A stretch of DNA of 64,000 nucleotides from Candidatus Cacconaster merdequi (GTDB lineage: Bacteria; Bacteroidota; Bacteroidia; Bacteroidales; UBA932). The notes below the pieces were generated by a model that was not told where the DNA came from, searched no databases, and saw only the letters and a list, made by a program, of their open reading frames with translations. The stretch covers positions 52,540 through 116,539 of the forward strand of contig JAGHVK010000066.1 of the NCBI GenBank assembly GCA_018064345.1, read 5' to 3'. Made by a program: the position numbers and the translations under genes. This document shows positions 2,765-43,345 of the stretch, piece after piece (the first letter of the stretch is position 1; each line of letters begins with the position of its first letter).

Positions 2765-3704
2765 CATAATATACAATAGACCTGTCATCAATGGCAGCCG
2801 CACGGTGGCTGTCATTGATGACTGTTTTATGGGCAACCCTCCACAATGGCCTGACTGCCCCCGGATTTTCATTCATGCGAGCGAGAAGGACAAGACTCTC
2901 GCAACTGTTGAAAAAGTAATCGGGAGGCTGTTGGAACTGGAAGCGGACAGGGATACTTTTCTGGTGGGGATAGGAGGTGGAATAACTACCGACATCACAG
3001 GATTCGTAGCTTCGACATTCAAACGAGGGTTGAGGTTCGGCCTGGTCCCGACAACTTTGCTCGCCCAGGTGGATGCTGCAATAGGAGGAAAGAACGGAGT
3101 GAATTTCTCCGGCTTCAAGAATATGATGGGAACGTTCAACGAAGCGGACTGGGTTTATGTTTCATCTTCTTTCCTCAAGACACTTGACCACAGACAGCTT
3201 ATGTGCGGTGCTGCTGAGATGCTCAAGACTTTTTTGATTGCAGATGAAAGGGCATATCACGAAGCAGTGGAGTTGTTTGCAGCTCAGGAAATTGATTTTG
3301 AGGCGATTCAACCTCTGGTACATCGTGCGGCGGAGATAAAGTTCTCAATTGTGGAGAAAGACCCGCAGGACAGAGGCATCCGACATCTCCTCAATTTCGG
3401 GCATACTTATGCCCACGCAATAGAAAAGAACGATACCGGTATGCTTCACGGTGAGGCAGTGGCTGTCGGGATGGTGATGGAGTCCCGTATAGCTGTGAAA
3501 AACGGTATCTTGGGAGAAGATGTTCTCTTTGAAATAGAATCCGATTTCAAGAGGATAGGCCTTCCGACCGATACTTCCCTCAAGGAAGAGGAACTGGAGG
3601 CTGCGCTCCTTCAGGACAAGAAACGCTCGGGAAATGTCATCAGAATGGCACTGCCGGCAAAAATAGGAGAAGCGGTGATATGGGAGAAATCTGTTACAGT
3701 CTGA
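2754..3704 (+). CDS. aroB: 3-dehydroquinate synthase
   Basis: GGGITTDITGFVASTFKRGLRFGLVPTTLLAQVDAAIGGKNGVN, LNFGHTYAHAIE, LHGEAVAVGM; start uncertain (TTG 2754 or GTG 2712). Confidence 0.93.
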   Translation: MRNNIIYNRPVINGSRTVAVIDDCFMGNPPQWPDCPRIFIHASEKDKTLATVEKVIGRLLELEADRDTFLVGIGGGITTDITGFVASTFKRGLRFGLVPTTLLAQVDAAIGGKNGVNFSGFKNMMGTFNEADWVYVSSSFLKTLDHRQLMCGAAEMLKTFLIADERAYHEAVELFAAQEIDFEAIQPLVHRAAEIKFSIVEKDPQDRGIRHLLNFGHTYAHAIEKNDTGMLHGEAVAVGMVMESRIAVKNGILGEDVLFEIESDFKRIGLPTDTSLKEEELEAALLQDKKRSGNVIRMALPAKIGEAVIWEKSVTV

Positions 3705-28388: not shown

Positions 28389-28512
28389 GAACCATTTCAA
28401 GACAGATTCCTTCCGTAACAACCCGTCAAGTGGAGCGTGCTGCGGATTATTGCCGATGAAATGCAGATAATATGTATTTCGTCGGTGGAGGGTATGGATT
28501 TTGCAGTAATAG

Positions 28513-34065: not shown

Positions 34066-34359
34066 ATGAAAAGTGTAATGATAGTATTCAATCAGGCTTT
34101 CACTTCACGAGTGGAGTTCATGCTTGATGAACTTGGAATCCGTGGATTCTCGTTTTTCGAGCAGGTCCAGGGCCGTGGCTCGAAGGATGGGGACCCTCAC
34201 CGTGGGACGCACACCTGGCCTGAGATGAATTCAGCTGTGATGACTGTCGTGGATGATGATAAAGTAGACGAATTGTTGCTGACAGTCAAGAAGTTGGACA
34301 GTCGCAACAAGGCTATCGGCGTCCGCGCTTTCGTCTGGAATGTCGAGCGCACTGTTTGA
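34066..34359 (+). CDS. Small PII-like protein associated with RND efflux
   Basis: 97 aa; F-EQVQGRGSKDGDPHRGTHTWPEMNSAVMTVVDDDKVDELLLTVKKL resembles the PII T-loop/core layout. Confidence 0.65.
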   Translation: MKSVMIVFNQAFTSRVEFMLDELGIRGFSFFEQVQGRGSKDGDPHRGTHTWPEMNSAVMTVVDDDKVDELLLTVKKLDSRNKAIGVRAFVWNVERTV

Positions 34360-34385
34360 TATCAAAAAATATTGAGTAACTTTAG

Positions 34386-34419
34386 GACCTGTTTTGAAAT
34401 GGCCGTTTCGGAACAGGTC
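34386..34419 (+). promoter_or_regulatory. Leader hairpin upstream of trxA, containing two inverted copies of the dispersed motif
   Basis: GACCTGTTTTGAAA-tggccg-TTTCGGAACAGGTC pairs over 14 positions (2 G-U). Confidence 0.7.
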
Positions 34420-34440
34420 ATGAGACAACAATTCAACTAA
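34399..34440 (+). other. Candidate 13-codon upstream ORF (MAVSEQVMRQQFN*)
   Basis: ATG inside the hairpin to TAA, 13 nt before the trxA ATG. Confidence 0.4.
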
Positions 34441-34453
34441 AAAAACGATAATT

Positions 34454-34771
34454 ATGGCACAGGCTGTAACAGATTCAAATTTCGATCAGATTGTAACGGG
34501 GTCAGACAAACTCGTGGTAATTGATTTCTGGGCTCCGTGGTGTGGTCCCTGCCGTATGATTTCACCGATTGTGGATGCTCTTGCTGAAAAGTACGCGGGG
34601 AAGGCGGACATCGTCAAATGCAATGTGGATGAGAGCGAGGAGCTCCCTATCAAGTTCGGAATAAGGAACATTCCGGCTATTCTCTTTATCAGGGATGGCA
34701 AGATGATAGACAGAATAGCAGGTGCTGTATCACAGGCAGAGCTTGAAAACAAAATAAATTCTTTGATTTGA
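34454..34771 (+). CDS. trxA: Thioredoxin
   Basis: VVIDFWAPWCGPCRMISPIVDALAEKY. Confidence 0.97.
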   Translation: MAQAVTDSNFDQIVTGSDKLVVIDFWAPWCGPCRMISPIVDALAEKYAGKADIVKCNVDESEELPIKFGIRNIPAILFIRDGKMIDRIAGAVSQAELENKINSLI

Positions 34772-43211: not shown

Positions 43212-43345
43212 GAATCTGTTTAGAAAAGAGCAAAAAATCAGACAGTTTCAATGCAGGTTCTTTATTTTTCTTTTGGTAGTTGGTGAATAATTTACTTAAC
43301 TTTGTCAGAGAGAAAGTCCATTATATCACAACATTATAAACTACT

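Follow-up and report, generated by a model that had tools for sequence, protein, structure and literature searches.

The hairpin in a Bacteroidales trxA leader is very probably the scar of a 162-bp IS5-type miniature element

The leader of the thioredoxin gene trxA in the window (the whole 64-kb stretch of DNA analysed here) contains a palindromic hairpin that overlaps a 13-codon upstream open reading frame (uORF). This raises the question whether the structure evolved to control thioredoxin, as a preliminary description had suggested, or reached the leader by another route.

The trxA leader and its congeners

The features of the locus, all on the plus strand, are as follows.
34066..34359, +: PII-like gene upstream of trxA (PG0541 family, NF045581; P-II, PF00543)
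34355..34358, +: TTTG, candidate -33 element for trxA, 18 nt 5' of the -7 box
34377..34384, +: TAACTTTA, likely -7 box of the trxA promoter, TAnnTTTR-type, with a counterpart at the equivalent position of 25 congener leaders
34382..34384, +: TTA, putative left target-site duplication at the end of the -7 box, assigned from its position at the element end
34385..34420, +: 36-bp putative MITE remnant, two 18-nt termini joined with 126 nt of interior missing
34386..34399, +: 5' hairpin arm, GACCTGTTTTGAAA
34399..34440, +: 13-codon uORF, MAVSEQVMRQQFN and stop, its ATG inside the stem-loop and derived from the MITE terminal repeat
34406..34419, +: 3' hairpin arm, TTTCGGAACAGGTC
34421..34423, +: TGA, putative right target-site duplication, assigned from the element boundary and ambiguous
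34454..34771, +: trxA, thioredoxin (TIGR01068)

The inverted motif pair is real, with both arms present around TGGCCG. Folded as RNA, it gives a 15-bp stem that includes U.G wobbles and is capped by a GGCC loop (-20.9 kcal/mol; z -3.4; none of 200 shuffled sequences was equally stable). The uORF and the 13 nt that separate its end from the trxA ATG (34454) were likewise described correctly, and the -7 box exists as proposed, although it lies one base later than claimed, at 34377-34384. Bacteroides promoters follow the consensus TTTG / TAnnTTTG with the second box around -7 (PMC7366714), and the Bacteroidetes sigma-A box, in Flavobacterium, lies at about -12 to -5 (PMC9723704). With either spacing, the trxA transcript would be expected to start near 34386-34389. 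Since a TAnnTTTR-type box occupies the same place in most congeners, the sequence makes a promoter at TAACTTTA likely, and with it the earlier placement of the hairpin right at the 5' end of the trxA transcript.

The PII-like gene is present in 39 of the 40 genomes of the genus, and in 27 congeners it is followed by trxA; a 28th locus, L083, has lost this gene order and stands outside the 27. Both the hairpin and the uORF are absent from all 27 of these leaders. The distance from the box to the trxA ATG is 21-35 nt in the 25 congeners with a recognisable box, compared to 69 nt here; subtracting the 36-bp insert and a 3-bp duplication leaves 30 nt for the leader without the element. Covariation across relatives had been suggested as a check on the trxA hairpin, but the congener leaders have no homologous hairpin and thus no pairing to conserve. 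Two of them, L077 and L078 (genomes G003 and G004), have a hairpin of another kind, including a run of T (AAGTGTTATC...AATAACACTTTTTTT), which overlaps the trxA -7 box and is probably the terminator of the PII-like gene.

A leader dedicated to trxA, in which the hairpin and/or the uORF evolved for attenuation, redox sensing or uORF-coupled translation, would account for a stable hairpin at the predicted 5' end and a uORF ending 13 nt before the gene. We consider this very unlikely: the structure is missing from every congener, the ends of a mobile element supply both the hairpin and the uORF start, the uORF ATG is buried in the stem, and neither a U run nor an alternative antiterminator was seen. 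Insertion plus internal deletion explains the sequence, and we found no evidence for attenuation or redox-responsive control of trxA.

The 36-bp insert and its parent element

We searched the window, unfiltered, with a covariance model (R1) built from eight full copies of a 162-nt element, the trxA locus being left out. The best match in the 64 kb was 34385-34420 (23.9 bits, E 0.0013), which aligns to model positions 1-18 and 145-162 and lacks the 126 positions between. The congener leaders are without these 36 bp, and the trxA hairpin is an insertion relative to them. The ATG of the uORF comes from the terminal repeat of the element (GAAATGG). On the plus strand, the sense strand of trxA, the match scores 23.9 bits, compared to 16.3 bits on the minus strand, and the three differences between the hairpin arms all read as U.G pairs in the mRNA and as A.C in the complementary strand; these changes could reflect later selection on an RNA hairpin or just drift. 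The flanks, TTA on the left and TGA on the right, form an imperfect duplication with one mismatch, which counts against an insertion. Taken together, we regard the hairpin with high confidence as a species-specific scar of an IS5-type MITE that later lost its interior.

The parent copies are 162 bp long, carry the motif ACCTGTTNNGAAA as terminal inverted repeat (TIR) with ends GAANCTGTTTTGAAATG, and occur in this genome, in congeners and in other horse-gut Bacteroidales assemblies. Full-length 162-nt copies include, among others:
L103, 631-792
L043, 2067-2228
L088, 2572-2733
L114, 1501-1662
L179, 1501-1662

Of 399 genomes from the family, 53 had a match to the model, spread over 7 of 26 genera, and almost all matches are 160-164 nt long. 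A second model, run on 393 genomes sampled from the order, matched in 29 (21 of 207 genera), where weak matches may be unrelated hairpins; order-wide matches above an E of about 1e-6, possibly unrelated long hairpins, were not relied on, and two truncated loci, L185 and L188, were not correctly placed. The element had no match in plasmids and none in viral contigs, and phages gave nothing beyond a chance-like 36-nt match in two Listeria phages.

Several marks of mobility accompany the full copies. Their TIRs measure 17-23 bp, and identical 3-bp flanks surround 19 of 39 (permutation mean 7.2, maximum 15, with 0 of 10,000 permutations as high), while TNA is found on either side in 29 of 39. TNA target duplications are typical of part of the IS5 family, and identical, mostly TNA, 3-bp flanks are the signature of a DDE transposon. 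At 162 bp the element lies below 500 bp, has no transposase of its own, reaches at least 7 copies per genome and sits outside long ORFs in 36 of 37 cases. On these sequence features (TIRs, a duplication of constant length, and small, multi-copy, intergenic units without a transposase) the family would be classed as an IS5-type MITE.

The orientation of the copies bears on a further explanation, in which the motif is a transcription-factor operator or another protein-binding palindrome upstream of many genes. Its over-representation in intergenic DNA and its occasional position next to start codons (GAAATG) are what an operator might show. The target duplications, the multi-kilobase-independent placement, the insertion relative to relatives and the lack of orientation bias (upstream of genes, 16 copies point the same way as the downstream gene and 17 the opposite way) make this explanation barely credible. 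A sense-oriented 3'UTR element was considered and rejected, as there is no orientation bias to neighbouring genes.

A possible source of the transposition activity lies outside the window's genome. The copy-rich genome G040 encodes an IS5-family transposase (NF033580, 219 bits; DUF4096, DDE_Tnp_1) and carries this insertion sequence (IS):
L140, 1465-2365 (G040): IS5-family IS of 901 bp, ends GAAGCTGTTTAAATTT / GAAACTGTTTAAATTT, TAA flanks
G268 (L172) likewise has a transposase and an IS with ends like GARNCTGTTTAAATTT, partial copies occur in G349 and G351, and MITE family members in other genera bear ends of this kind (GAGACTGTTTAAATTT, GAAACTGTTTGAATTT). The IS of about 900 bp in G040 and G268 is a candidate helper of the family. 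An IS bearing the exact GAANCTGTTTTGAAATG / GAACCTGTTTTGAAATG end was not found, and searches with PF01609, PF13586 and P0003 detected no transposase in the window's own genome, G000 (84% complete). A transposase in the same genome is not required of a MITE remnant.

Pattern and model searches gave the copy numbers in this genome. The motif ACCTGTTNNGAAA occurs 51 times, compared to 3 for a reversed-pattern control; it stands in the context AGAACCTGTTTTGAAATGGTTCT, mostly in intergenic DNA and often abutting a stop codon, and forms close inverted pairs at two places only, the trxA leader and G000:C47:13180-13216. The exact 21-mer GAACCTGTTTTGAAATGGTTC is present 17 times here, once in one congener and not at all in the other 38. 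Six exact 21-bp solos carry direct TTA/TTA or TAA/TAA flanks; across 35 loose matches, which include full-length left ends and mutated copies, solo duplications do not exceed chance (6 identical, 3.7 expected, P 0.14). Element ends in this genome read ...GAAATGGTTCACG on the left and ...ACAGGTTC on the right, and if the DNA between the two GGTTC repeats were deleted, the predicted product would be precisely the 21-bp solo, its flanks unchanged.

Short intergenic palindromes such as these 17 exact copies, arranged singly, in tandem or inverted, recall REP/BIME-type repeats moved by a RAYT (Y1 HUH) transposase. We judge such an origin highly improbable: Y1_Tnp (PF01797) is absent from G000, the direct TTA/TTA or TAA/TAA flanks of several solos are expected of DDE and not of HUH elements, and full-length 162-bp parents exist.

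Loss of the interior, as proposed for the MITE scar in front of trxA, is not confined to that locus. A second end-to-end scar in this genome (L108 2181-2217, equivalent to G000:C47:13180-13216; 31.1 bits) has perfect 15-bp arms, GAGCCTGTTTTGAAA, around a 7-nt loop, and another element copy is internally deleted to 54 bp with TAA/TAA flanks retained. The 54-bp copy and the second hairpin together indicate that interior loss recurs.

Additional repeats were observed in the window and in other loci. Window positions 43212-43260, just past a TAG, match the two element ends weakly (14.2 bits, E 0.23) around a 19-nt interior and are a possible third deleted copy, and a solo-like copy, GAATCTGTCTTGAAATGGTTC, followed by TTA, lies on the minus strand at 28389-28409. 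Half-copies of the terminal repeat ending in ...GAAATG, in which the ATG resembles a gene start codon and TAA often stands just before the repeat, were seen at the following places:
L010, 1983
L034, 2001 and 4855
L036, 2039
L115, L117, L122 and L128
window, 23372 and 54907
At window positions 2776-2830 lies an inverted repeat of 24 nt interrupted by 7 nt, ATAGACCTGTCATCAATGGCAGCC / GGCTGTCATTGATGACTGTTTTAT, which is unrelated to the element.

Folding of the 162-nt element

Full copies are predicted to fold, on one strand, into a single hairpin of nearly constant length. Among the first eight sequences, 22 of 63 pairs showed compensatory change (shuffles, 7.0 ± 1.9); in 35 model-aligned rows, one of them an antisense match, 54 of 63 pairs did so (356 cells, compared to 113 ± 8). 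A structure-free MAFFT alignment of 27 copies gave 30 of 50 pairs and 188 cells, compared to 63 ± 6. At each of the 27 loci examined, the fold of the modelled strand is better than that of its complement, and G.U wobbles outnumber A.C mismatches by 160 to 34. The internal loops are also non-random. Of the two 2x2 loops near the tip, which lie two pairs apart, one is GA/GA in 30 of 34, and the other is GA/GA in 17 and GC/AA in 7; close to the base, a 3x3 loop reads GAA/GAA in 14 and is otherwise mostly G-A rich. Strand-specific compensation and non-random internal loops together point to selection on a folded single strand, either RNA or DNA.

The same hairpin tip also occurs with different ends, at L156, L170, L181 and L085 5928-6084. 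The L085 sequence, on the minus strand and 4 nt from the 54-bp deleted copy, is a divergent relative that keeps the tip GAAGGAGC...GTGACTGA, and suggests a conserved core with exchangeable terminal repeats. Rfam searches returned only tRNA and one chance hit for six loci with full copies (E up to 1), and only tRNAs for the window.

At slightly less than even odds, the family may be a mobile structured RNA borne by an IS5-type MITE, in which the RNA (or the folded single-stranded DNA) would have a job of its own, either in the host or in its own spread. If this is true, the hairpin in front of trxA would count among its dead remnants.

Consequences for trxA and comparison with known systems

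The order of events that would best fit these observations begins with a 162-bp IS5-type MITE, its single strand folding end to end, inserting at the last three bases (TTA) of the trxA -7 box. The interior 126 bp would have been lost later, so that the two 18-nt ends abut as a 36-bp perfect-loop hairpin. With the insertion directly behind the -7 box, transcription would be expected to begin just inside the 5' arm, at one of its first few bases, and the trxA mRNA would now open on a hairpin (12 to 15 bp, about -17 to -21 kcal/mol). The leaders of relatives fold weakly by comparison, with -4 to -7 kcal/mol predicted for three congeners. A hairpin at the 5' terminus can slow 5'-end-dependent decay. 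Hairpin MITEs can alter mRNA stability or undergo RNase III cutting (PMC2229807, PMC10969869). The likeliest effect here, if any, would be on mRNA decay or processing, through a slowing of 5'-end-dependent decay or cleavage by a double-strand RNase, and would probably not be regulated attenuation. Such an effect on trxA mRNA decay would be plausible.

The scar might have been exapted, with its 5'-terminal hairpin now stabilising trxA mRNA and being kept by selection. The predicted start in the 5' arm, the stability of the resulting terminal hairpin, the U.G nature of all arm differences on the mRNA strand and the higher plus-strand score would agree with this. The hairpin is found in one genome only, and three changes are too few, so we consider exaptation rather doubtful.

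The reading of the thioredoxin hairpin as a conserved redox leader, tempting as it was, is removed by these results, which also account for a motif present in about 50 copies in this genome. Promoter-proximal insertion of the MITE offers a route by which a ready-made hairpin can be placed at the first base of a housekeeping mRNA. Stem-loops of the ompA type at the 5' terminus protect mRNA; the trxA stem-loop resembles them in being predicted at the first transcribed bases, but it is not a conserved structure, and any stabilisation by it is putative.

We found no description of such a hairpin-MITE family in the open literature searched, and the 162-nt element is apparently undescribed in these sources. 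Most known hairpin MITEs, ERIC and NEMIS among them, come from Proteobacteria. A family that spans the Bacteroidales and combines strand-specific compensation with conserved tandem-GA loops would be a case of a miniature transposon whose folded strand is under selection. It prompts the question whether RNA or a single-stranded DNA hairpin is the selected form.

Among known elements, the MITEs of Porphyromonas gingivalis (BrickBuilt, MITE464) are similarly from Bacteroidales, intergenic and equipped with IS5-family-like ends, such as GAGACTGTTGCA of ISPg4/MITE464 (PMC4596501). They differ in a TIR that diverges beyond GAGACTGTT, in a tandem-repeat interior and in lacking a single long hairpin of fixed length. 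Correia/NEMIS elements of Neisseria are likewise MITEs with long TIRs that are co-transcribed, and RNase III cuts their transcripts at the TIRs (PMC2229807, PMC10969869). Unlike the 162-nt family they have a TA duplication, a 24-bp TIR, 107- and 155-bp forms and an IHF site, and there is no homology.

The family also resembles ERIC of enterobacteria (127 bp), which is non-autonomous and intergenic, has transcripts that form a hairpin over their whole length, is fairly fixed in length, duplicates its target and can alter the stability of mRNAs containing it (PMC2229807). ERIC differs in belonging to another phylum, in its TA ends and in having no IS5-type TNA duplication; similarity in sequence between the two would not be expected. 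Conserved tandem-GA loops are a feature of the 162-nt family that does not appear in the parts of the ERIC descriptions consulted. By predicted folding and covariation, the 162-nt family would share the whole-element stem-loop of ERIC and NEMIS. In summary, the scar in front of trxA is an ordinary event, and its parent element family is the interesting and new part.
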